A DNA stretch of 64,000 bases, from NCBI GenBank assembly GCA_036703985.1, contig DATNQN010000029.1, positions 248,001-312,000 on the forward strand, given 5' to 3'. Shown piece by piece: positions 22,578 through 36,080 of this stretch. The translations under genes and the position numbers were made by a program. Numbering within the stretch: position 1 is the first letter of the stretch; every line of letters begins with the position of its first letter. Under the pieces are notes generated by a model, which did not search any database, was not told the origin of the DNA, and worked only from the letters and a program-made list of their open reading frames with translations. Source of the stretch: Leptolyngbyaceae cyanobacterium (lineage in GTDB: Bacteria; Cyanobacteriota; Cyanobacteriia; Cyanobacteriales; Aerosakkonemataceae).

Positions 22578-25500
22578 ATGGCCAATATCATCGGTACAAT
22601 TGGTAATGAATTTTTAACAGGTACGTTAGAAAACGATTCTATCCTTGGATTTGCAGGTAATGACACCCTGCTAGGACTGCCAGGAACCGACACCATCAAC
22701 GGGAATGAAGGTAATGATAGCCTTCGAGGTGATGAAGGTGATGACTACGTGCGAGGTGGCCAGAATGACGATGAAATGTTTGGCAATCTGGGAATTGACA
22801 CGATTTTTGGCGATCTGGGCAATGATACGATTTCTGGCAATGAAGAGAACGACCTGATTAATGGCAACGAAGGCAACGATGTTATCAATGGTAATCAGGG
22901 TAACGATACAGTTCGGGGTGGCGAAGACGATGACGTAGTGCGCGGCGGTCAAGATAATGATGAAGTTTTTGGCGATCGCGGTAACGATACTGGCTTCGGA
23001 GACTTCGGAAACGACAGCGTATATGGCGGCGAGGGCTTGGATGTCCTCAACGGCAACGAAGGTAACGACACCCTCAATGGCAACGAAGACAACGATATTG
23101 TCAGGGGTGGCAAAGACGACGATTTAGTACGAGGCGGTCAAAACGAAGACGAAGTTTACGGCGACTTGGGCAATGACACTTTGTTTGGCGACCAAGGAAA
23201 CGATTCCGTTTACGGTGGACAAGGAATAGACCTCCTATTTGGCAACGCTGATAATGACGTTCTCAACGGTAACGAGGGTAACGATACTCTCTTTGGCGGA
23301 CAAGGTTTAGATTTGGTGCGAGGTGGTCAAGATAATGACCAGATGTTCGGAGAATTTGGTAATGACACCCTCTATGGCGACCTTGGTAACGACAGCATTC
23401 TAGGCAATGAAAACGATGACATCATCAATGGCAACCAAGGTGATGATACCCTCAATGGGAATGAAGGTAACGATACCGTCCGAGGCGGTCAGGGTAATGA
23501 CTACGTAAGGGGTGGCCAAAACGAAGATGCAGTTTTTGGTGACTTAGGCAATGACACCTTATATGGAGATTTGGGTAACGACACTGTTTATGCCGGAGAA
23601 GGGACAGACCTCCTGTTTGGTAATGAAGGAAACGACATCCTCAACGGTAATCAAGGGGACGATACAATCTTCGGCGGACAAGGTAATGACTATGCCAGGG
23701 GTGGCATGGACAACGATCGCTTGTTCGGAGACGAAGACAATGACACCCTATATGGCGATCTCGGAAACGATACTGTCTTCGGTGGCATAGGCAATGACCT
23801 GATGAATGGCAATGAGGGTGATGACATCCTCAATGGCAACGAAGGACTAGATACGGTCAGGGGCGGTCAGGGTAATGACTTAGTACGAGGCGGTCAAAAC
23901 GATGACCAATTGTACGGCGATAAAGGCGACGATACGGTTTTCGGAGATTTAGATAACGATACGGTTTTTGGTGGAGAAGGTGCAGATCTCCTATTCGGCA
24001 ACGAAGGCGATGACGTTCTGAATGGGAATGAGGGGAATGATTCGGTTTTCGGCGGACAGGGTAAAGATCTGGTAAGAGGCGGTCAAGGAAATGACTCCCT
24101 GTTTGGCGATCGAGGTAGCGATACCTTATTCGGCGATTTGGGTGCAGATACTCTCACCGGTGATAGTCAAGGAGAAGTCAACACAGATATATTCGTTTTC
24201 GGGAAAGGAATGGGTGGCCCTACCAGGGCTGATGCCGATATTGTTACCGACTGGCAACACTGTATAGATTTAATTTCTTTAACTGGCGGACTCAGTTACG
24301 CAGATATAAATATCCAACAGGGTACGGGGGCTGATGCTGCTAATACGATCGTCACCGATAAAGCGACGGGAGAATTTTTAGGCGTTCTCCTGAATGTTGA
24401 TAGTAACTCGATCGACGGTTCGGCTTTCATTCCTAGCGGGCCTTCTAAAGTAAGCATCGTAGCTACTAATCCCACTACGATCGAATCTACTCCTAATACA
24501 GCACCGGGTTTATTTACCCTTTCCATCCCTTGCGATATCGATACCGATCTCACTATTAATTACACGATTACCGGTACTGCTGCTAACGGCAAAGATTATC
24601 AAATTATCACCAGTAGCGTTATTCTGCCAGCCGGATCGGAAACGGTGACGATTCCGGTCATAGCTATTGACGATACAGAAGTCGAACAACCGGAAACAGT
24701 AACTTTGACTCTCAACCCCGGCACCGGTTATGAAGTAGCAACTTCTGGCAAAAATACCGCTACCGTCACTATTTTGGATAATGATGCGTTAACTCAAACA
24801 ACAGTTAGCTTATTTGCCAGCGATCCCTTAGCTTCAGAAATTGGCCCAGATCCGGGGCAATTTACGTTTGCCCGGACAGGTGATGTTTCTCAACCGCTGA
24901 CGGTAAATTACAGCCTGTCACCTTTAAGTAGTGCAACCAATAATACAGACTACACTGCCAATCCAGCGTTAAACACTACAAGCATTACCATTCCTGCCGG
25001 GTCCGATCGAGTGACAGTTAACATTAACCCCATCCTTGATTCTTTAATAGAGGGCAATGAAACTGTTATCTTAAACTTGGGTGCTGGCCTTGGTTATACG
25101 GTTGGCCCAGCCAATAACGCTACGGTGGTAATTCAAGATAATCCAGTTGTCACCAGACCAATTGTTGGTGTTACTGCCCCAGACCCGATCTCGGAGGAAA
25201 ACGGTTCTAAGATCGGTACATTTCAATTCTCCCGCACTGGTGGCGATACCAGCCAACCACTGACTATTAAATACACCATCAGCGGTACCGCAACTTCTGG
25301 AACTGACTATTCAGCATTGAGTGGTACGGTAACTATCAATGCCGGTCAAACAGTTTCCTCACTAATTAATGTCACTCCCTCATCTGATAGCATTAACGAA
25401 CCCACAGAAACCGTTGTCGTAACTGTTACTGAAGATAGCCCTTACCTTGTTGGTTCGCAAAGTACTGCCACAGTGAGCATTTTAGATAATAATCCTTTAG

Positions 25501-26576
25501 CGAACGCTCCAGCTGGTACTCTTCCAGTTCGTCGTTATAACTCTAGTGGAACAACCTTATTAAGCAGTCACAACAATTTTACTGATGCTGTTGCGGCTGC
25601 TGCTGATAATGACATTCTAGTGGCAATCGCAGGAACCTATAACGAACCAGGAACGGTTATTATCAATAGACCATTGACTGTACGCGGCCCAAACGCCGGA
25701 CTCAGCCCCTCTTCAGGTGGAGGAGTGACTCCAGCGATCGTCAGTGCGCCATCTGGTCAACGGGTTTTTGCAGTAAATCCTGGTATCAGCGGCGTCACCA
25801 TTGAAGGGTTAACGATTCAAGCTAATGCCAACGCTCAAAATGCGGTCGAATACACTAGTAATACAGGCACTCCCAGCGTCGTAATTCGTCAGAATCAGTT
25901 TACTGGTGAAGGCCCTAATAACGGTGGGGTGATTCGCGTAGACTTCCAAGGAGCGGCAGGTTCTAAGGCAACTATTGTAGATAATTTAATTCGGGATGTT
26001 AACACTACTAGTGGTGTAATAACTAGCGGTATTCAAGCATTCAGAGTCGAGCAAGTTAACATTAGCGATAACGTGGTTGCTAAACTAACAGGCCCGGGTA
26101 TTGTGGCTGATTCTGTTACTAATCCTAATAACATTATCAACTCCAACACGGTCAGCGATATAGGGCAACAAGGGATTCAGCTAGCAGGAGGTAGTGCAAC
26201 GATCGCCAACAACAACGTCACTAACGTTAACTTAGCCCAAGGGGTAGATGATGGTGGTATTCGGCTGCGGAATTCCGGTTTCGGTGGCAAGTTGATAACT
26301 GCTAACGTCTTCGGTAATACAATTACTAACTCCGTAAATGGTATTGCCATCCGTAATAATGATGCGATTAGCGGTAGTGTGACAATTAATAATAACAATC
26401 TGATCGGTAATACTAAAGCAGGTTTGTACCACGGTGGTACTGGTACGATTAATGCCACTAACAATTGGTGGGATGACCCCAGTGGGCCGATTGTGGGTGG
26501 TACTGGCCGAAATGCGATTAATGTCCCTAATGGTGGTACGGTTACCTTCAACCCGTTTGCTAATCAACCCTTCTAA
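22578..26576 (+). CDS. Giant RTX / Calx-beta / parallel beta-helix exoprotein
   Basis: This 1332-residue protein is probably secreted. Residues about 15-530 are an uninterrupted array of more than 50 calcium-binding RTX nonapeptides (GGxGxDxLx type, many in GN and GD variants). These are followed by a serralysin-like cap (TDIFVFGKG, VTDWQHCIDLISL). Three Calx-beta domains follow at about 622-735, 740-855 and 860-970, each ending in a TVTILDND-type strand. The C-terminal 350 residues read as a right-handed parallel beta-helix, with NNWWDDPSGP near the end. There is no Sec signal peptide, which fits type I secretion, but no ABC exporter or membrane fusion gene is nearby. The RTX array has a clear 63-residue higher-order period. 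Confidence 0.93.
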   Translation: MANIIGTIGNEFLTGTLENDSILGFAGNDTLLGLPGTDTINGNEGNDSLRGDEGDDYVRGGQNDDEMFGNLGIDTIFGDLGNDTISGNEENDLINGNEGNDVINGNQGNDTVRGGEDDDVVRGGQDNDEVFGDRGNDTGFGDFGNDSVYGGEGLDVLNGNEGNDTLNGNEDNDIVRGGKDDDLVRGGQNEDEVYGDLGNDTLFGDQGNDSVYGGQGIDLLFGNADNDVLNGNEGNDTLFGGQGLDLVRGGQDNDQMFGEFGNDTLYGDLGNDSILGNENDDIINGNQGDDTLNGNEGNDTVRGGQGNDYVRGGQNEDAVFGDLGNDTLYGDLGNDTVYAGEGTDLLFGNEGNDILNGNQGDDTIFGGQGNDYARGGMDNDRLFGDEDNDTLYGDLGNDTVFGGIGNDLMNGNEGDDILNGNEGLDTVRGGQGNDLVRGGQNDDQLYGDKGDDTVFGDLDNDTVFGGEGADLLFGNEGDDVLNGNEGNDSVFGGQGKDLVRGGQGNDSLFGDRGSDTLFGDLGADTLTGDSQGEVNTDIFVFGKGMGGPTRADADIVTDWQHCIDLISLTGGLSYADINIQQGTGADAANTIVTDKATGEFLGVLLNVDSNSIDGSAFIPSGPSKVSIVATNPTTIESTPNTAPGLFTLSIPCDIDTDLTINYTITGTAANGKDYQIITSSVILPAGSETVTIPVIAIDDTEVEQPETVTLTLNPGTGYEVATSGKNTATVTILDNDALTQTTVSLFASDPLASEIGPDPGQFTFARTGDVSQPLTVNYSLSPLSSATNNTDYTANPALNTTSITIPAGSDRVTVNINPILDSLIEGNETVILNLGAGLGYTVGPANNATVVIQDNPVVTRPIVGVTAPDPISEENGSKIGTFQFSRTGGDTSQPLTIKYTISGTATSGTDYSALSGTVTINAGQTVSSLINVTPSSDSINEPTETVVVTVTEDSPYLVGSQSTATVSILDNNPLANAPAGTLPVRRYNSSGTTLLSSHNNFTDAVAAAADNDILVAIAGTYNEPGTVIINRPLTVRGPNAGLSPSSGGGVTPAIVSAPSGQRVFAVNPGISGVTIEGLTIQANANAQNAVEYTSNTGTPSVVIRQNQFTGEGPNNGGVIRVDFQGAAGSKATIVDNLIRDVNTTSGVITSGIQAFRVEQVNISDNVVAKLTGPGIVADSVTNPNNIINSNTVSDIGQQGIQLAGGSATIANNNVTNVNLAQGVDDGGIRLRNSGFGGKLITANVFGNTITNSVNGIAIRNNDAISGSVTINNNNLIGNTKAGLYHGGTGTINATNNWWDDPSGPIVGGTGRNAINVPNGGTVTFNPFANQPF
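22722..24152 (+). repeat. RTX array with 189-bp higher-order period
   Basis: About 53 consecutive nonapeptide modules (27 bp each). Every seventh module is VRGGQ-type (modules 2, 9, 16, 23, 30, 44 and 51; ARGGM at 37), giving a 63-residue or 189-bp super-repeat. From about module 20 the units alternate between two forms (LFGN versus INGN/MNGN, and FGG versus VRGG), so the real duplication unit there is 14 modules, 126 residues or 378 bp. Confidence 0.9.
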
Positions 26577-26650: not shown

Positions 26651-27214
26651 ATGACCTCTGAGGTTTTAGTCGAAAAGAAAAAACTGGATAACCCACCCCT
26701 GGATATCCACACTTTAGGCGATCGCGTTTTGCGTCAACCCGCTAAACGCATCACCAAGGTAGACTCGGAAATCCGGGATCTAGTCCGCCAAATGCTGCAA
26801 ACTATGTACAGCGCTGATGGGATAGGTTTAGCCGCACCTCAAGTAGCAATACACAAACAATTAATCGTGATCGATTGCGAACCAGATAATGCAGCTAATC
26901 AACCACTGGTTTTAATTAACCCATCCATTAAGAGTTTTAGTCGCGATATCTGTGTAGCGCAAGAAGGCTGTCTGAGCATTCCGAAAGTTTACTTGGATGT
27001 AAAGCGCCCAGCAGCTTTGGAAGTTGCTTATAAAGATGAATACGGTCGTCCTCACAACTTAAAAGCTACCGGATTACTAGCCCGTGCAATTCAACATGAA
27101 ATGGATCATCTCAATGGGGTGCTTTTCGTAGACCGGGTAGAAAATAGTTTAGCTCTCAATCAAGAGTTAAATAAATACGGATTTTCGCCGAAAGCTGTTC
27201 AACCAGTAGTATAA
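26651..27214 (+). CDS. def: Peptide deformylase
   Basis: A 187-residue metalloenzyme that removes the N-formyl group from nascent proteins. All three catalytic motifs are intact: GIGLAAPQ (motif 1), EGCLS (motif 2, with the metal Cys) and HEMDH (motif 3, two metal His and the catalytic Glu). The N-terminal LDIHTLGDRVLRQPAKRI is usual for the cyanobacterial enzyme. A 66-residue membrane protein gene follows after 11 nt. Confidence 0.96.
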   Translation: MTSEVLVEKKKLDNPPLDIHTLGDRVLRQPAKRITKVDSEIRDLVRQMLQTMYSADGIGLAAPQVAIHKQLIVIDCEPDNAANQPLVLINPSIKSFSRDICVAQEGCLSIPKVYLDVKRPAALEVAYKDEYGRPHNLKATGLLARAIQHEMDHLNGVLFVDRVENSLALNQELNKYGFSPKAVQPVV

Positions 27215-27225
27215 AATAAAAAACC

Positions 27226-27426
27226 GTGTATACAACGCCAAAAAGCGCCCTTTTCTTGGGCGCTGCCTGTGTCGCAGCGATTGCAGCCGTTGGTTCGATT
27301 TTCGAGCTTTCATCGGGAGAACCCCAGCTAGGCAGCTTAGTAACGAGTATTATTCTGGCAGTTAGCGTACCAATGGGGGGATTATTGTTTTATGCGGCTG
27401 TTAAAGACGCTAACGCTAATCAATAA
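27226..27426 (+). CDS. Small two-helix membrane protein
   Basis: A 66-residue protein with two hydrophobic helices (residues about 8-28 and 38-60) linked by a polar SSGEPQLG loop. GTG start 11 nt after def, without a clear ribosome-binding site, so it probably depends on coupling to def. Followed by a strong hairpin at 27431. Family not recognised; the location after def and the intact helices argue that it is real. Confidence 0.6.
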   Translation: MYTTPKSALFLGAACVAAIAAVGSIFELSSGEPQLGSLVTSIILAVSVPMGGLLFYAAVKDANANQ

Positions 27427-27822: not shown

Positions 27823-29178
27823 ATGGCCAGCGACATTTCTGAGGGATTTCTTCGTCAGTTGCCTGATGGTAAATCAGGCTCAGAACGTCGCTATTGTCTG
27901 GAAAACTTAGACGAAATCGTGCTAGGGCGAGATTTTAATTGTCATGTTGTTTTGGATTCTAAAATATATGGAATGGTTTCCCGACGCCATACCGTAATCA
28001 GCCATATCACTAAGTTTGCAGGCGCTCCACCTAGCTGGCTGGTTTGCGATTTAAACAGTGCTAACGGTACGTATATCAATGGGGAAAAGTTGAGTGGATG
28101 CAAAATCTGTCGGGTAGGCGATCGCATCACGCTAGGTAACAATGGGCCTGAGTTTATCTTTGAGTGTGAATATGCTTCTACTAAACAACAGGAAGAACCA
28201 GCAAGAGGAGAGAAAGCCGAAAATTACGCTTCATTAACTACAAGTCAGTCAGATTCCGTTAGCTTTACTCAACTATTTCCCATCTTTTCAACTGGCAAAT
28301 ATTTAATCCAAAAAGCTTATTTAATTCCCGGCATTTTTACCGTAACCTTTGTAGTCTTAATGTTTGCTTCTGTAGGCAAGTCAATGGCATTTAATTTAAC
28401 ATTGGCTTCTTACTTGGCTGGGGCAGCTTATTATTTTGTTTATCAACTTTGTGGAAAGCATAAACCTTGGTGGGTGCTGTTACTTTCCGGCTTAACCACT
28501 ATTTTTATCTTACTCAGTCCATTATTATTGCTATTTATAGTTATTTTCCGAGAAATTTTGCCGGGAAGTGTACCTGCATCAGCTAACGCCGTGAGTTTTC
28601 CGATTTTGCTAATCCAAATGTTTTTTGGCGCTGGCTTGATGGAGGAATTACTGAAAGCATTACCAATTTTAGGTGCATATTTATTAGGACGTAATTTGCC
28701 ATCACCTTGGCGAGAACGGATCGGGGTTTGGGAGCCTTTAGATGGTATCTTGCTAGGAACGGCTTCTGCTGTGGGATTTACGCTCCTAGAAACTTTAAGC
28801 CAGTACATACCACAAATTATTCAGAATGTAACTTTGCAAGCAGGGCAAGGAGCGGGCGAGTTAGCAGGATTGCAGTTACTAATTCCTCGAGTTTTGGGTT
28901 CCGTGGCTGGACATATGGCTTATAGCGGCTATTTGGGCTATTTCATTGGTCTGAGCGTACTTAAGCCGAATCAGCGCTGGCAAATACTAGGAATTGGGTA
29001 TTTTAGCGCAGCAGCACTCCATGCTTTGTGGAACGCCACTGGCATTTTTAGCACCTTTATTTTGGCCGTGGTCGGAGTTTTATCCTATGCCTTTTTAACG
29101 GCTGCAATTCTGAAAGCTCGTACTTTATCACCTACTAGATCCCAAAATTTTGCCACGCGCTTTATTGGTCGTTCGTAG
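27823..29178 (+). CDS. FHA domain fused to PrsW-family intramembrane protease
   Basis: A 451-residue fusion. Residues about 20-115 form an FHA domain with the phosphothreonine-binding signatures VLGRDFNCHVVL, SRRHTVI and NGTYINGEKL. After a polar linker, residues about 165-445 contain some nine membrane helices of the PrsW family. Its motifs are visible: EELLK (about residue 271), FTLLE (about 318), and the histidines of GHMAYSGYLG and ALHALWNA. PrsW enzymes are glutamic-type intramembrane proteases that cut membrane regulators such as anti-sigma factors. The fusion suggests recruitment or gating by a phosphorylated partner (inference). The gene overlaps the convergent 29162 gene by 17 bp. 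Confidence 0.88.
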   Translation: MASDISEGFLRQLPDGKSGSERRYCLENLDEIVLGRDFNCHVVLDSKIYGMVSRRHTVISHITKFAGAPPSWLVCDLNSANGTYINGEKLSGCKICRVGDRITLGNNGPEFIFECEYASTKQQEEPARGEKAENYASLTTSQSDSVSFTQLFPIFSTGKYLIQKAYLIPGIFTVTFVVLMFASVGKSMAFNLTLASYLAGAAYYFVYQLCGKHKPWWVLLLSGLTTIFILLSPLLLLFIVIFREILPGSVPASANAVSFPILLIQMFFGAGLMEELLKALPILGAYLLGRNLPSPWRERIGVWEPLDGILLGTASAVGFTLLETLSQYIPQIIQNVTLQAGQGAGELAGLQLLIPRVLGSVAGHMAYSGYLGYFIGLSVLKPNQRWQILGIGYFSAAALHALWNATGIFSTFILAVVGVLSYAFLTAAILKARTLSPTRSQNFATRFIGRS

Positions 29179-29794
29179 TTTCTAATTCAGCAAAAGCGTA
29201 GCGAGAAATCGCCAAACTCAAACGAGCTTTTTCCATTGGAGATAATTCTTCAAAAGGAACTTCTCTTACTTTTTCCAGGAATGTTTCGATCGCTTCCGTC
29301 TGGTCTCCCCGCATAGCGTAAGCTAGAGGACGCGCCATCACTAGCAAGTCTTCTTCCGTCCAGCCTATACTGAGTTCGTTCACGCATCTAACTAATCTCT
29401 CTGCTAAGCATAAATTACTAGAAACTAGTTCTTTCGCTGTTTTGGCAATCAGCGCTAGGGTAACTTGTGGAACGCGAGAAGCAAATTTTTGGCACAAAGT
29501 AGCCAAAATATCGGAATGAGAGGTGGCAATTTCCGTAGAGGCTACAGGAACTTCTGGTTCCCAAAGTTGGTCAAGCTGTGTAAATAGGGCTTGCGATCGA
29601 GCCTCTATTTCCGTATCTAGAAGCTCATCTAAAGGAAATGCTGCTTCTAAAGCGGTAAAGTATGCTTCCGACTCTGGATGGGCGGTGTTCCAGCAATAAT
29701 TTGTTTCATCTTGTAAAAGCATCTCCCATAATTCACGTTCTGCTTCTGACCAAAAATCTGATGAATATTGAGGATACTTGGTTTCACTGGCCAT
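29162..29794 (-). CDS. Conserved hypothetical, acidic helical protein
   Basis: A 210-residue soluble acidic protein, nearly all helical. It has a Trp-rich start (FWSEAERELWEMLLQ) and a C-terminal EELSPMEKARLSLAISRYAF segment. The middle (residues about 95-185) looks like two or three helical repeats. No signal peptide, membrane segment or catalytic motif. Family not recognised. It overlaps the 3' end of the FHA-PrsW gene tail to tail by 17 bp and lies in the FHA/CHAT/PP2C neighbourhood, so involvement there is possible but unproven. Confidence 0.7.
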   Translation of the reverse strand: MASETKYPQYSSDFWSEAERELWEMLLQDETNYCWNTAHPESEAYFTALEAAFPLDELLDTEIEARSQALFTQLDQLWEPEVPVASTEIATSHSDILATLCQKFASRVPQVTLALIAKTAKELVSSNLCLAERLVRCVNELSIGWTEEDLLVMARPLAYAMRGDQTEAIETFLEKVREVPFEELSPMEKARLSLAISRYAFAELETTNDQ

Positions 29795-29985
29795 AATTCA
29801 ACTCCTATGTCTATTTTTTGACTCTTGCTGTCCGCAGATTGACTACACTAGCACCTTCACTAGTTCCGCAACTTGTCAGAAGCTCAAACAGTGCCAATTG
29901 CGATCGCTAATTATCGGTTCTTGTGGCAGAAAAATGGCAATGGTGTTTGCCTTTTCTCCCACAATTTATAATGATGACTAATTGA

Positions 29986-30246
29986 TTCAACTTTTATATC
30001 AATCTTTACGGTAAAAGCGATCTCGATTTTCTTCGATTAATAGACCAAATGAAATAATTCTAAGAGCATCAAGAGAGTTTTTTTATTAATCCCTATCATC
30101 AGCAAGACCTAACTGTAAACAGCTATTTGGCTGGTTTTATCGGTTTCAATTGCCAATTTAATCACCTTAATCCCGGTCAGGCAATTAAAAATCTAGCAGC
30201 GAAAGCCAAAGTTTTTTACAAATCGTTATCTAAACTTCCATCATAA
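29986..30246 (+). pseudogene. Decayed ORF of unknown family
   Basis: A frame running to the stop codon at 30244 reads FNFYINLYGKSDLDFLRLID, two closely spaced stops (from 30053), then EHQESFFINPYHQQDLTVNS, YLAGFIGFNCQFNHLNPGQA and IKNLAAKAKVFYKSLSKLPS. The composition is protein-like across the whole 85-codon span despite the stops, and the upstream part (before 29986) is frame-shifted. It overlaps the last 17 bp of the convergent CHAT gene. I cannot assign a family. Confidence 0.45.
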
Positions 30247-31834
30247 ATTCCCAAATTTGGCCGTGAGAACTGCCAAATTTAAGCTGGGTTCCCGATTTTA
30301 AAGGAATTTCCTCATGATGGATTTTGCGCCAACCCGTATTATCTAAAATGAGCGTACCGAAACGAGAAAAATCTCTTAGAAAGTAAGTAGGGCGAACGTT
30401 AGCGCCAAAGCGATCGTCTCGACAAATAATTTCTGCGTGTCTCTGAGACACCCACTTTTCGCAAATTACCAAATCGTTTTCCTGGCGGCGTCCCACCCGC
30501 ATCAGCCCGCCCCGAATCGGCCAAACCTTATCGATTCCCAGCGGACGCACGAAAGCCGCTTTTTCTCGCCCCACCCAAGTAAGAGAATTTTCTGGTAATT
30601 CGGTGATTCCTTCTCCCAAAGGTTGGAGCAATTGCCCGTTAAAATCGGGGTGCATATATAGGACGGGCAAAGTCCAAGCTGGTTGATTGAACTTGTAAAG
30701 AGTGAGTAATTGTTGCCTCGCCACCGCCACTGCCTGATCGATCGACATTCGATCGGCCAAAGCACGAGCAAAAGCTTTAATGAAACTAATCGCTTCCTCA
30801 TCTGCGATCGCATCTCGCATCGCCACTACTGCCGGAACGCCATGATGTAGCAGCACTTCCGCCAAACTACTGCGAGGAATCGGTTGATTGTTATACCTAG
30901 CTGATTGAGCGCCCCAACAAGCATTGAATACTGCTAGTATGACCTGGCAGCGAGTCAGAACTTGTGCCAGTTCAGTCCCGTTCATCGTCACCTCAGGGCC
31001 CAAAAACAGCAACCCGCCATCCGGTGCAGGAACCCCGTGACCTGCATAAAAAAACATATTGTAAGAACCTTGCTCCAGCTGGGAAATCAATTCGGCTGGG
31101 GTAGGCATGATCAAAGTATCGACTTGGCAAGGAACCAGAGTAGCCGAAGGATTAAAGCTGCCGCTAGTTTCCAAAATTCTCGCTAATGCGATCGCTTCTT
31201 GTTCCAGTTTTAACCGACCAGAAACAGGAGTTCGATCGGGGGCATCTTGTCCTAAAACGAGCAAAATATTTAAAGTTTGCTCCGGTCTCAACACTGGCAA
31301 AGGCGCGACATCGCTGGTAGTGCGACTAAACAGTAGTTGTTGACTCAACGAGACCGCTGGTTTGCCCGGTTGGGGTTGCATGATTTCCCAAGGCAAAGTA
31401 ATTAAGTCTGGGTCGCGAATTTCCAGGCGCAGCCGCAAAGGTTTATCCAGACCGATCGCGATTCCTTGACTGTGATCGAGGCTACTTTGAATTTGCCCCT
31501 CAAACAACCACTGCCAAAGTTGAATTCCCAACTGCTGCATCAGACGACCACCATAAGAGGTAGTTTGCTGCAAAGGACTAGAAACCACTACCAAAGTTGG
31601 CGCTAAAGCTACTTCAGCTACTGATACTTTCGGGGAACCTGACCAGCTAAAGGGGGAAAACATTTCCTGCCAAGCAAGCCAGGTCTGGGTTAAGGTTTCT
31701 GGCCAAATGCAGTCGTGGTGGAGATATCCACCAGGATAAGGAGCTTTTAAAACCCAGATGGCAAAGTGTTCTGCCTCAGCAGCCACCAGGCGAGCTATGC
31801 TTAAGTTGAGGCAAGGACTTTCAAATGGCGACAT
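30230..31834 (-). CDS. CHAT-domain protease-like protein with C-terminal FHA domain
   Basis: A 534-residue protein. Residues about 185-400 form a CHAT (caspase-like, separase-related) domain. The catalytic His lies in NMFFYAGHG and the catalytic Cys in FNACWGAQSA, so the dyad is intact. The C-terminal 100 residues form an FHA domain (MRVGRRQENDLVI, SQRHAEI, RDFSRFGTLI). No signal peptide or membrane helix. CHAT proteins act as regulated proteases in bacterial death and defence systems (for example the gRAMP-linked TPR-CHAT), while many cyanobacterial ones are uncharacterised. The FHA suggests docking to a phosphoprotein. The upstream neighbour on the same strand, after a tnpB remnant, is a PP2C phosphatase. 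Confidence 0.88.
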   Translation of the reverse strand: MSPFESPCLNLSIARLVAAEAEHFAIWVLKAPYPGGYLHHDCIWPETLTQTWLAWQEMFSPFSWSGSPKVSVAEVALAPTLVVVSSPLQQTTSYGGRLMQQLGIQLWQWLFEGQIQSSLDHSQGIAIGLDKPLRLRLEIRDPDLITLPWEIMQPQPGKPAVSLSQQLLFSRTTSDVAPLPVLRPEQTLNILLVLGQDAPDRTPVSGRLKLEQEAIALARILETSGSFNPSATLVPCQVDTLIMPTPAELISQLEQGSYNMFFYAGHGVPAPDGGLLFLGPEVTMNGTELAQVLTRCQVILAVFNACWGAQSARYNNQPIPRSSLAEVLLHHGVPAVVAMRDAIADEEAISFIKAFARALADRMSIDQAVAVARQQLLTLYKFNQPAWTLPVLYMHPDFNGQLLQPLGEGITELPENSLTWVGREKAAFVRPLGIDKVWPIRGGLMRVGRRQENDLVICEKWVSQRHAEIICRDDRFGANVRPTYFLRDFSRFGTLILDNTGWRKIHHEEIPLKSGTQLKFGSSHGQIWEFMMEV

Positions 31835-31930
31835 TCAGAACCTTTGGATATAAAGACCTGGACGAGAGCTATTTTTTTTACCAGTTTTTTATCAGTCTAT
31901 CGATTATTTAAGAGTATCGAAAAATTGGGT

Positions 31931-31960
31931 TTAAAACCCCGTCGTAGAACGACGGCTGTT
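31931..31960. repeat. Hairpin at the left part of a degraded insertion element
   Basis: Perfect CCGTCGT / ACGACGG stem with an AGA loop (31939-31955), preceded by TTTAAAACC. It lies upstream of the tnpB-like remnant and may be a boundary or guide-RNA-like hairpin of the same IS200/IS605-type element. Confidence 0.4.
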
Positions 31961-32059
31961 GATACAATACTAAGAGGTCAATGACCGCGAGAACGATGAG
32001 CAAACAGGTTTAACGTCCTACTCCGTAATCTCGAAATTCCTAACAGTCAATAGAAAGTC

Positions 32060-32275
32060 CAAACTGTAAGGACGAAAAAGCAATTAAATACTGTGGGGCA
32101 CACGGAAATTTACGCTTGGGGAGTAGTCCGTCAGAGCGCTTGCTGTAAAAGGTGTAGTCGGACTAGACATGAATCTGTAAGACCAAAACTAAAATTACTT
32201 GGTGGAGGCAGTGTTCAGCCCAAGAATCGCCGCCCTAAAAGCGCGGCTAGTCTCAATCTAGTTAATTTGCTGTAG
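32060..32275 (+). pseudogene. Remnant of IS200/IS605 tnpB (C-terminal end)
   Basis: The open frame contains LNTVGHTEIYAWG, a phrase typical of the extreme C-terminus of cyanobacterial TnpB/OrfB proteins, followed by a basic tail. Nothing upstream encodes the RuvC-like core, so more than 80% of the gene is missing. A right-end-like hairpin (GCCGCCCTAAAAGCGCGGC) lies at 32229-32247. The element sits between the PP2C and CHAT genes and its end overlaps the PP2C 3' end by 14 bp. Confidence 0.6.
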
Positions 32276-34577
32276 GGGTCGCAGGCGGAGAAGGAACCTT
32301 ACATTTTGCTGAGTCTGCTGGTTGCTGTAGACCATTTTGCTGAATGTGGAGTTCCAAATCTGTTTGTTTAACCCATCCTTCTTGGGAGGCTTTTACGAAA
32401 TTAATTGCAGAAGCAGAAGAAGGCGGGTTATTACTAGAAGAATTGTTAGTACTCCGTAGCTGTTTCCCATTCGGCTCTTGTTCGGTAGCCGTACAAACTT
32501 TCAGCTTCAACCATCTGTTTTGTCCTAAAACAACTTGAGTTTTCACTTCCAAAAGAGTTTGGCCTGGGATTATTCCGATCGGTGCAGGTGGTTTATCGGA
32601 TGGTTGATGAGGTGCTGGATATAACAAAAGCTGCACGATTTTACCTTGGGAGTTTTTTGCTAATCCGTTTTCGATTCGGATCGTCGCTCCCGTAGGCAGC
32701 AAAGAGTCTGAAGATTTCGTGGGAACCGGACTGGCGATGGTAGGAGTATTTGGCTTAATTTCCGGTTCAACAGTGCTTAAAACTGTTGACTCTCCCCATT
32801 TTCCTACCAAAAAATAAAGCAGCATAGCACCCACACCTAATAATAAAGCGATTCCCAATAATAAAGGTAACAACCTGGGTGTTCGGCGCGGTGATGAAAG
32901 CAGTTGAGTTTTCAGAGAGGATGGAGAGTTTTCAGATGGTAATTCCGTAATTGGATATGAGGGCAAACCAAGGCTGATTTTTGCGGTCTGTGACTTTTTT
33001 TTGCGGTCTGCTGTCTCTGGCTCCTTAACTTGGCAGTAAATCAAACCAATGGTGACGTTATCGTGGCCATTTTGAGTATTCGCAATTTCGATTAATTTAG
33101 CTGCTGCGGTTGCCAAATCGATTTTCCCAGCTAAAACTGGCAGAATTTCCGTATCCCAAAATTGTTCTACTCGGTCATTATCGCTGAGGCCGTCAGAGCA
33201 AAGTAGGAAAATACTATCTTCATCGATGATTAATTTTTGTACGGTGGGATGTAGGTTGTTTGAGGAACTCATCCCTAATGCTTGTACTAAAGAGCCAGAC
33301 CCTAGTTGTTGTAAAGCTTCCCGGTATAAAGTATAGCCAAGGCGAACTTCTCGACTGGCTACATCATCATCGAGGGTGACTTGATGGCAACCAGTACTGG
33401 TAATCCAATAAACTCTGCTATCCCCTATATGGGTAACGTACATTTCGTGATTGTTGGTTAAAGCCATCACCAGGGTGGTTCCCATCCGTTGGCGATCGAA
33501 TCTTCCTTCTCGATCGTTACGCTCGCTGATCCGATCGTTAGCATCGCAGACGGCGCTTTCTAATTGATTGATCGGCTGGAAATGGCTGACCTCTGCCTCT
33601 ACATATTGCGAAATTTGAGATACTACGGTTTCAATTGCCAAGTTGGAGGCAACATTTCCGCCTTCGTGTCCTCCAATTCCATCGCAGACGACTGCTAGAA
33701 CTTGAGAATCGATGGGAATTTGGTTAAAGCTTCCGCTAGGTGGATAGCAAGCATCTTCATTGCGCTGTCTGGTTGGCCCTGTATCTGTTAATGTAGCGAT
33801 TTGATAGGTGCGAGTTTGCGATCGAGCCACCTCCCCCAGTATTCGATCCATCTGTGCAATTACTTCATCAATAGATATTTGCTGGCGGATCGTTTGCTGG
33901 CAAAGTTCTGCTAGAAAATCTGCTATTTCGGGTTTGGTATCGTTTACCAATTCTCGCCAAAATAGACCCAGGTCTTTGAGAGTTAATTCTTCGCGATCGA
34001 AAGATAATTCCAACAAGCGGACTAAAGAACCTTCTACTCTAAGCAGTTTTGGCTCTAGCAAACTACTTGCTACTCCCAGGTAGCTAAAAGGTTGCCACAA
34101 ATGAGCGATCTGCCACAACCAATTTAGCTGACGTATGGTAGAACTGTTTTTCCATAGCGCTGTTAACTTTGGGAGCAACACAGGGGCTTCGTCTTTGCGA
34201 TCGCTAAAAATAGGCGCTTGTTCTAAGAGCCAAATTTCTTGGTTTTGGTTTTTCTTAAGAGGTGGTAATTTTCCATACACTTGAGGAACGTGCAACTGGT
34301 AGGAAAATAACCGCAGGTATGGCAAAAGTGCATCGGGAATATCGGTGGGAAATAATGGGGTAAATCCAGGTTTAGTATCCAGCAAAATGCGATCGCGTTT
34401 GACCAAATAGCGATCGCCCAACAGTTTTCCAGGTTTATATCCTTCTATCCCAGCACCTACAGCCCACAAATAGCGTTTCGGTAAAGGAGTGCGACATCGC
34501 TGGCAAAATCTGTGCGCCTCGGGGTTGGGAGCCTGACAAAGTTGATTGGGACAAGTAATTTTAGCAGCGTCTCCCAT
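32262..34577 (-). CDS. Zinc-ribbon / pseudokinase-like / PP2C Ser-Thr phosphatase, membrane anchored
   Basis: A 771-residue multidomain protein. It begins with a zinc ribbon (C-x4-C and C-x2-C within residues 9-28). A region of about residues 45-250 resembles a degenerate protein kinase fold (GDRYLVKRD, LLEPKLLRVEGSLVRLLELS). A complete PP2C phosphatase follows at about 262-515, with metal-binding signatures RNEDA, VCDGIGGHEGG, GDSRVYW, SDGLSDND and GHDNVTIG all present. One membrane helix (about 575-597, PLLLGIALLLGVGAMLLYF) leads to a C-terminal domain on the far side that ends in a proline-rich tail. PP2C removes phosphate from Ser/Thr, opposing Hanks kinases. It lies upstream of the CHAT-FHA gene on the same strand with a 427-bp gap. 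Confidence 0.88.
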   Translation of the reverse strand: MGDAAKITCPNQLCQAPNPEAHRFCQRCRTPLPKRYLWAVGAGIEGYKPGKLLGDRYLVKRDRILLDTKPGFTPLFPTDIPDALLPYLRLFSYQLHVPQVYGKLPPLKKNQNQEIWLLEQAPIFSDRKDEAPVLLPKLTALWKNSSTIRQLNWLWQIAHLWQPFSYLGVASSLLEPKLLRVEGSLVRLLELSFDREELTLKDLGLFWRELVNDTKPEIADFLAELCQQTIRQQISIDEVIAQMDRILGEVARSQTRTYQIATLTDTGPTRQRNEDACYPPSGSFNQIPIDSQVLAVVCDGIGGHEGGNVASNLAIETVVSQISQYVEAEVSHFQPINQLESAVCDANDRISERNDREGRFDRQRMGTTLVMALTNNHEMYVTHIGDSRVYWITSTGCHQVTLDDDVASREVRLGYTLYREALQQLGSGSLVQALGMSSSNNLHPTVQKLIIDEDSIFLLCSDGLSDNDRVEQFWDTEILPVLAGKIDLATAAAKLIEIANTQNGHDNVTIGLIYCQVKEPETADRKKKSQTAKISLGLPSYPITELPSENSPSSLKTQLLSSPRRTPRLLPLLLGIALLLGVGAMLLYFLVGKWGESTVLSTVEPEIKPNTPTIASPVPTKSSDSLLPTGATIRIENGLAKNSQGKIVQLLLYPAPHQPSDKPPAPIGIIPGQTLLEVKTQVVLGQNRWLKLKVCTATEQEPNGKQLRSTNNSSSNNPPSSASAINFVKASQEGWVKQTDLELHIQQNGLQQPADSAKCKVPSPPATPTAN

Positions 34578-34780: not shown

Positions 34781-34990
34781 CTAAGAATCTTCTTTTTCGA
34801 TCGCGCTTTGCCGCATCAACTGGGGCCAAACAATTAAGAAAAAGCCCATCCAGGTTAAAACGGGCAAGGAAATGACCGCTGTTACCCAAATAATTTTGAA
34901 TAATAGCCAGCTACCACCAATTAACGTCACGCCTGTGAGTATAATCGACCAAGGCTGACACCACCAAGGTTTGTATTGCCAGGGATTCAT
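34781..34990 (-). CDS. Small conserved membrane protein (DUF6737-like)
   Basis: A 69-residue protein starting MNPWQYKPWWCQPWSIILTG, a very characteristic cyanobacterial N-terminus that I associate with DUF6737. Two membrane helices follow (residues about 15-32 and 38-58), then a short acidic tail. Function unknown. It stands alone. Confidence 0.8.
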   Translation of the reverse strand: MNPWQYKPWWCQPWSIILTGVTLIGGSWLLFKIIWVTAVISLPVLTWMGFFLIVWPQLMRQSAIEKEDS

Positions 34991-35632
34991 AACTATCTTA
35001 ATATTTTTAATGAAAGAATTTAGATGGTTATATATTAAGCTTTTTTCTTGTTAATGAGTAATCAGGACGTACCTCGGCAAAGCCACTCGACCATGCTCGG
35101 CATCAACAAACACTTATTTTTTTATTTTTTGCTTTCGCGTATATATAATCATCCATAATGAAACAGAACTATTTCTGCCATAGTTATGCTTCCACAAGCC
35201 AAAATAAATTTAATTTAAGTTAATATTTATTAATTAACGGCTGACATCTAAATTAAATCAGGAGTTTCATTAACCTATCCAATAGTGAACTTAAAAGCTT
35301 GGGTATTGGTTGGCGATATCGAAAATATTGTCCCTGTTTAGAATTATTTGAATCAATTTTTTGACAAAAAATAAGAATTTTAAATACTTTTAATTTGGTT
35401 GATTTTTACGATTTAACTTAACTTTATAAAAGGCAAGAAAAATTTGGCAAATCAGGAGCCATATACTTTTACTTTACTCAAGCACTGTTAAATTTACTAT
35501 CCTGGCCAGACTTTCGGCGATCGCTCGGTCGAGCCGGGACAGTGGTAAAAATTAGCGGAAGTGCTAGTTAAAGAAATGAGTACGAAATATTACTTAGCTC
35601 CTGATTCTAAGCAATGCCAAAAAGAATTTCCG
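34991..35632. other. AT-rich intergenic region, no gene supported
   Basis: About 640 bases. Short protein-like readings near 35450-35630 (for example YFTQALLNLLSWPDF) are broken by stops and cannot be assigned, so I do not call a pseudogene. Confidence 0.45.
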
Positions 35633-35971
35633 TTACTTGTCAGATACAACTTGTGGTAAGCCCATGCTATAATTTAGAACACGGCTATCTAAGTTGTAAC
35701 TAATTTCACCTTTTTGTAAAAGCGATCGCACTAAATGCTCTAAATCCGAACCAATGCGACGGATATTATATTCAGTCAAATCCTCTCCGCTATACGACTC
35801 TACCAGTTCATCAAATTTGCGATAAACCTTTTGCAGAGACTCTTCATTCCAATTAAATTCATTATCTGGATCGATATCCAAAGTTAAAACGCTGTCACTG
35901 GGAACTAGCTCGTTGTTTTCGACTTCAGCGGTAAAGATCCGAATATGACGGGTGGTAGACTTGAGCAGCAT
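35633..35971 (-). CDS. ndhM: NAD(P)H-quinone oxidoreductase subunit M
   Basis: NdhM is a peripheral, oxygenic-phototroph-specific subunit of the thylakoid NDH-1 complex in respiration and cyclic electron flow. [19 protein letters not shown] at the start, [13 protein letters not shown] and [11 protein letters not shown] at the end are diagnostic. An upstream in-frame start at 35989 would add six residues; the ATG at 35971 gives the usual N-terminus and 112 residues. It lies 110 bp after leuD on the same strand. Confidence 0.95.
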
Positions 35972-36080
35972 AAGGGCAATCTTTCTCAAACAAAAGTTTT
36001 AATCATTGTAAACCCTTGTCAAGCTATTTCCTGCTTTTAGGACAGACAAGGGCAACCTACTAATTAATACTGACGTTATG

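Follow-up and report, generated by a model that had tools for sequence, protein, structure and literature searches.

Positions 27,823 to 34,577 of the window, a stretch of 64,000 nucleotides from a cyanobacterial genome of 7.68 Mb, hold a block of genes centred on CHAT-FHA, a predicted caspase-like protease with a C-terminal FHA domain, and on HYP, a helical protein of an unnamed family. HYP is the obligate and tightest partner of CHAT-FHA, and this pairing is well supported by the genomes surveyed. Among named genomes, the closest match to CHAT-FHA comes from Argonema antarcticum, at 80% identity. Gene calls and Pfam were used to confirm the genes of the window, and the block contains:

27823-29178, + strand: FHA-PrsW intramembrane protease, 451 residues (gene call, Pfam)
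29162-29794, - strand: HYP, 210 residues, all-helical, unnamed family (gene call, alignment, AlphaFold2)
30230-31834, - strand: CHAT-FHA protease, 534 residues (gene call, Pfam)
31915-32257, no strand: dispersed non-coding repeat between the CHAT-FHA and PP2C genes (copies elsewhere in the genome)
32262-34577, - strand: membrane-anchored zinc ribbon-pseudokinase-PP2C phosphatase, 771 residues (gene call, family profiles, fold)

An initial annotation, made from the letters alone, had described FHA-PrsW, CHAT-FHA, and a zinc ribbon-pseudokinase-PP2C protein with a transmembrane segment, and all three architectures are present here with intact active-site residues. The same annotation treated the "hypothetical gene" as a spacer, a view that does not survive: HYP belongs to a conserved family and is the closest companion of the protease.

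The evidence for the pairing comes from 311 genomes of the cyanobacterial class, searched with similarity thresholds that could hide remote homologues. HYP and CHAT-FHA are both present in 155 of them and both missing in 152; two have HYP only (G005 and G383) and two CHAT-FHA only (G208 and G296), giving a phi of 0.974. Three of these four exceptions are poor assemblies, with G208 and G383 72-79% complete and G296 in 1200 contigs. At the G005 locus, HYP, PP2C and FHA-PrsW are in place and CHAT-FHA was undetected. In one family (f5), the two genes are jointly present or jointly absent in all nine sampled genomes. Since HYP almost never occurs without CHAT-FHA, both probably belong to one signalling device.

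The arrangement of the two genes points the same way. A survey of 80 loci picked by CHAT-FHA alone yielded 44 with at least 8 kb of sequence on each side (full loci), and HYP is found in 42 of these. In 64 of the 74 loci with enough sequence it lies directly downstream of CHAT-FHA and shares its strand; in Laspinema loci it lies upstream. Where both genes could be placed (143 genomes), they are adjacent in 116 and apart in 27. Of the separated pairs, 23 sit on different contigs, some of which may be assembly breaks, and four lie 0.55-3.9 Mb apart on one contig (G303, G400, G095 and G273). That the two are retained even at such distances means that their association is not mere linkage and argues for a functional tie.

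The surroundings of the pair are also conserved. In a 146-genome sample of the phylum, several families share the order and orientation of FHA-PrsW, HYP, CHAT-FHA and PP2C. In the full CHAT-FHA loci, PP2C is found 20 times, FHA-PrsW 14, a peptide deformylase 13, a gene for a 66-residue protein 13, NdhM 11 and DUF6737 10, and genes outside the block each appear in at most three of the 44. The neighbourhood is beyond chance and recurs in many cyanobacterial families; the genes are not scattered elsewhere, the outcome that would have spoken against the cluster first proposed, and PP2C is a real and frequent neighbour of CHAT-FHA. With 14 FHA matches in the genome, which also has 77 kinase matches, two FHA genes 1.1 kb apart are mildly unlikely by chance; as a rough estimate, random placement would give about 0.06 FHA pairs within 2.5 kb. 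The outer frame of the block, seen in several families, consists of the deformylase and the 66-residue, membrane-like protein on one side (26651-27426, + strand) and of DUF6737 and NdhM on the other (34781-35989, - strand).

The CHAT-FHA protein has the following parts:

about 30689-31534, - strand: CHAT domain, residues 101-382 (Pfam PF12770, E 2.3e-20, 73.6 bits, cut-off 24)
31037-31039 and 30917-30919, - strand: catalytic His266 and Cys306 (alignment)
about 30272-30499, - strand: C-terminal FHA domain, residues 446-521 (Pfam, E 1.1e-10, 42.2 bits, above the cut-off)

By domain score and by its His/Cys dyad, which the alignment finds in 115 of 115 relatives, this is a CHAT family protein, and proteolysis is its predicted activity. 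The FHA domain shows the signature GR, S-x2-H and GT, including Arg449 and Ser463, which contact phosphothreonine; these signature residues suggest that it reads phosphothreonine. Among the 115 relatives, Arg449 is kept in 100, Ser463 in 114 and His466 in 113, and most CHAT-FHA proteins have Tyr or Phe in place of the canonical FHA Asn. The Arg and Ser, whose loss would have spoken against the first proposal of phospho-control, are thus in place here, as they are in the FHA domain of FHA-PrsW (Arg36 in 32 and Ser53 in 33 of 33 relatives). No solved structure is related to CHAT-FHA by sequence at E 0.01, and none of the papers searched joins the CHAT domain, the FHA domain and cyanobacteria. 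Identity as a defence system was considered for the locus and dropped, PADLOC returning weak generic matches only.

For HYP, the features are:

residues 33-36: motif Y-P-W-N (C at 34 in the window copy)
residues 154-162: motif A-R-P-x-A-Y-A-M-R
residues 181-186: motif W-x2-L-S-E (F181 in the window copy)
29309-29311, - strand: Arg162, invariant in the alignment

Searches of Pfam and NCBIfam place HYP in no family, returning scattered noise only, and its fold has no match in the PDB with E below 0.9. AlphaFold2 predicts an all-helical protein (pLDDT 80, pTM 0.56). An alignment of 106 sequences has Asp149, Arg155, Pro156, Arg162 (106/106) and Leu184 as invariant residues, and Tyr33, Trp35, Pro109, Cys137 and Ser185 as near-invariant ones. 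In the model, a loop at residues 159-164 comes after a conserved helix; the stretch beyond it is variable and gapped, and in most sequences Arg162 precedes a Gly, Ser, Asp or Glu. Arg162, beside this variable linker, is for this reason a candidate site at which CHAT could cut. The 106 sequences contain no invariant Thr, so HYP itself is unlikely to be the docking partner of the FHA domain, and the phosphoprotein is probably another. In the HYP of G005, Thr replaces the near-invariant Met161.

The third protein of interest is the phosphatase:

about 34494-34553, - strand: zinc ribbon with Cys9, Cys14, Cys25 and Cys28 (weak match)
33813-34472, - strand: pseudokinase-fold region, residues about 36-255 (AlphaFold2 and Foldseek)
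33039-33788, - strand: PP2C domain, residues about 264-513 (family profiles)
residues about 560-585: single hydrophobic segment (read from the sequence)

The zinc ribbon match is weak in the window protein (0.011) and is seen in most relatives. The PP2C domain is clear: Pfam PP2C_2 gives E 7.3e-14 and 52.3 bits against a cut-off of 24 (PF13672/PF00481), the Stp1-type PP2C profile gives 8.3e-48, the metal-binding Asp275, Asp299, Asp462 and Asp506 are invariant among relatives, and the motifs RxxNEDA, DGIGGH, GDSR and GHDN are conserved. The region that follows the hydrophobic segment presumably lies outside the membrane. In the part between zinc ribbon and PP2C, Pfam finds no kinase signal and profile comparison is negative (hhalign probability 0.1). 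Its model (pLDDT 89, pTM 0.84) has a kinase fold, as judged by Foldseek, which returns PknG (4y0x, E 6.5e-6, probability 1.00), many other kinases, and the Rv3910 pseudokinase with E about 5e-4 (3oun, 3otv, 3uqc); the TM-scores to kinases are modest, at 0.4-0.5. The HRD and DFG motifs were not seen at the expected places of the consensus, which was read by eye without a structure-based alignment. The PP2C gene accompanies CHAT-FHA also where the synteny with NdhM is gone. PrpJ of Anabaena was weighed as a possible relative of this phosphatase, for which the papers searched gave no usable sequence or locus data.

How might these proteins act together? We lean somewhat towards the view that CHAT-FHA is an FHA-gated protease with HYP as its dedicated partner, often encoded beside a pseudokinase-PP2C protein that may reset the switch. 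The FHA domain of the soluble CHAT-FHA would dock on a protein that one of the cell's numerous Hanks kinases has phosphorylated, and docking would position or activate the CHAT domain. HYP would then be what the protease acts on, or acts through, and the likeliest event is a cut after Arg162 at the edge of the variable linker. Such a cut would separate the conserved N-terminal part from the C-terminal helix, and the activity of HYP would be released or destroyed. The membrane-bound zinc ribbon-pseudokinase-PP2C protein, encoded on the same strand, would remove the phosphate and reset the switch; its pseudokinase may also be the docking site of the FHA domain, which makes this protein a candidate for the phosphoprotein.

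Behind this proposal is the fact that known CHAT proteases cut nearby-encoded proteins or small regulators; by analogy, HYP would be either a substrate or a securin-like inhibitor. We infer the former, and likewise the place of the cut, the phospho-gating and the reversal by PP2C. The proposal in its fullest form, a widespread cyanobacterial device in which a phosphorylation-switched caspase-like protease cuts its obligate partner after Arg162 and is reset by a pseudokinase-PP2C protein doubling as the FHA platform, must be considered doubtful.

Several points weigh against a phospho-gated protease cutting HYP. Arg162 may be a structural or binding residue, as Arg155, Pro156 and Asp149 are equally invariant. 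The FHA Arg is lost in 15 of the 115 CHAT-FHA relatives, mostly to Met or Ser and with the Ser, the His and the fold signature kept, and in G097 and G147 the match stops before the FHA domain, so that phospho-reading does not extend to the whole family. Fewer than half of the CHAT-FHA loci have PP2C, and many genomes carry PP2C but no CHAT-FHA. Lastly, the sampled genomes are related by descent; a Fisher p-value therefore overstates their independence, and raw p-values are not meaningful.

The alternative that fares best is that HYP is an inhibitor, chaperone or adaptor of CHAT-FHA, with the true substrate elsewhere, and we hold it to be possible, if rather unlikely. Separase, for example, has an inhibitor, securin. 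The near-perfect one-to-one co-occurrence fits a stable complex equally well, the conserved Asp149, Arg155, Pro156, Leu184 and Ser185 lie outside the linker, and TPR-CHAT is structurally like separase (PMC9729208). However, a cut site would be expected to look like this, an invariant Arg by a variable linker, and in the known case of a CHAT neighbour, that of Csx30, the neighbour is a substrate (PMC9729208).

A different alternative concerns FHA-PrsW, whose domains are as follows:

27916-28137, + strand: FHA domain, residues 32-105 (Pfam, E 2.8e-13)
28462-29106, + strand: PrsW domain PF13367, residues 214-428 (Pfam, E 9.8e-35, 120 bits, cut-off 23.5)

Its motifs EExxK, His and HxxxN (Glu274, Glu275, Lys278, His364, His400 and Asn404) are kept in 33 of 33 relatives. 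The initial annotation took the cluster for a single unit under phospho-control, in which CHAT-FHA and FHA-PrsW would be the two proteolytic outputs and PP2C the eraser. The FHA domains of both proteases are intact. In 60 of the 99 genomes with both placed, FHA-PrsW is convergent with HYP and no more than 3 kb away, and in five (G005, G172, G297, G343 and G400) it stays beside HYP where CHAT-FHA is elsewhere or missing. Against this, the presence of the two proteases is nearly independent (both in 112 genomes, FHA-PrsW only in 68, CHAT-FHA only in 45; phi 0.275), FHA-PrsW is linked to CHAT-FHA at the same level as the housekeeping deformylase (14 against 13 of the 44 loci), and the gene is convergent with HYP, with a 17-base overlap in the window, and not co-transcribed. 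A two-output unit is accordingly improbable, and FHA-PrsW was rejected as a core member on its weak co-occurrence and ordinary linkage. It is a gene in its own right, inherited for the most part vertically, and a loosely attached neighbour, which may have a minor role given the five genomes. What endures of the phospho-controlled cluster is its conserved neighbourhood, its FHA residues and its PP2C linkage; what falls is the place of FHA-PrsW, and HYP had been missed.

That the whole block has no functional tie and is an old gene order which has survived by chance, in genomes that rearrange slowly, is very improbable: deformylase and NdhM (11/44) are linked at levels similar to PrsW, and chance retention is a good explanation for PrsW and a possible one for PP2C, but HYP is linked far more often and co-occurs with CHAT-FHA even where the two are unlinked.

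The stretches between the genes had been read as two decayed elements, which holds for one of them in altered form. The spacer between CHAT-FHA and PP2C (31915-32257) is a dispersed repeat, about 340 bases long, of which the genome has at least four other full or partial copies, at 73-90% identity. It looks like a miniature mobile element, and no transposase was seen by eye in the open reading frames flanking the two copies checked. The stretch 29795-30229 is single-copy in the genome and is thus not shown to be an element. Upstream of the block, the + strand gene at 22578-26576 encodes a 1332-residue protein with, by eye, many GNxGNDxLxG (RTX-like) repeats and, after these, parts that resemble Calx-beta and right-handed repeats; the GC skew is high at its start.

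Cyanobacteria have many Hanks kinases, FHA domains and caspase-like proteases, but how these are wired together is known in few cases. In the HYP/CHAT-FHA pair, a caspase-like protease is connected to kinase signalling and has a specific partner that lends itself to testing. As the pair is present in about half of the 311 genomes, its mechanism, once decided, could apply to a large group. The 15 relatives without the FHA Arg offer a natural test of phospho-independent function.

With regard to known systems, the FHA-PrsW fusion has been listed as a signalling version of PrsW since 2012, and the part of that account considered here does not mention a neighbourhood of CHAT-FHA, HYP and PP2C (Zhang et al. 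2012, PMC3482391); its link to the block is at the level of an ordinary neighbour. The nearest named family of the PP2C protein is the cyanobacterial serine/threonine phosphatase PRK14559 (NF011149; E 7.2e-78, 262.9 bits). The window protein differs in adding a transmembrane segment and a C-terminal region, and its score below the equivalog cut-off of 374 makes it probably a paralogue; a second related copy exists in the same genome.

In PknG, a kinase is combined with a metal-binding part of rubredoxin-like character. Rv3910 (MviN) of Mycobacterium tuberculosis has a pseudokinase that complexes with the FHA protein FhaA under the control of PknB (PMC3601408). The likeness lies in the pseudokinase fold, which in Rv3910 binds an FHA domain; unlike the PP2C protein, Rv3910 has its pseudokinase fused to MviN, and what it controls is cell-wall synthesis rather than a protease. 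Both parallels are suggestive, not proof.

A relative on the CHAT-FHA side is HetF, the CHAT protease of heterocyst-forming cyanobacteria, which cuts the small regulatory protein PatU3 (PMC12288457) and has transmembrane and TPR parts (PMC8406250). The catalytic domains are related (NF045509, E 3.2e-46), but the match is limited to residues 101-404, with 158.1 bits against a cut-off of 1200, and the window protein carries an FHA domain, which HetF lacks. HYP matches none of the families in Pfam and NCBIfam, the two collections it was searched against. In Craspase, of the type III-E CRISPR systems, TPR-CHAT uses a His-Cys dyad to cut Csx30, encoded next to it (PMC9729208). Craspase is gated by the RNA-guided Cas7-11 and has TPR, whereas the window protein has FHA and no TPR match in Pfam; HYP showed no relation to a named family in Pfam or NCBIfam, a search that did not include Cas7-11 or csx30 models. 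What the two systems have in common is a CHAT protease with a specific partner encoded next door.

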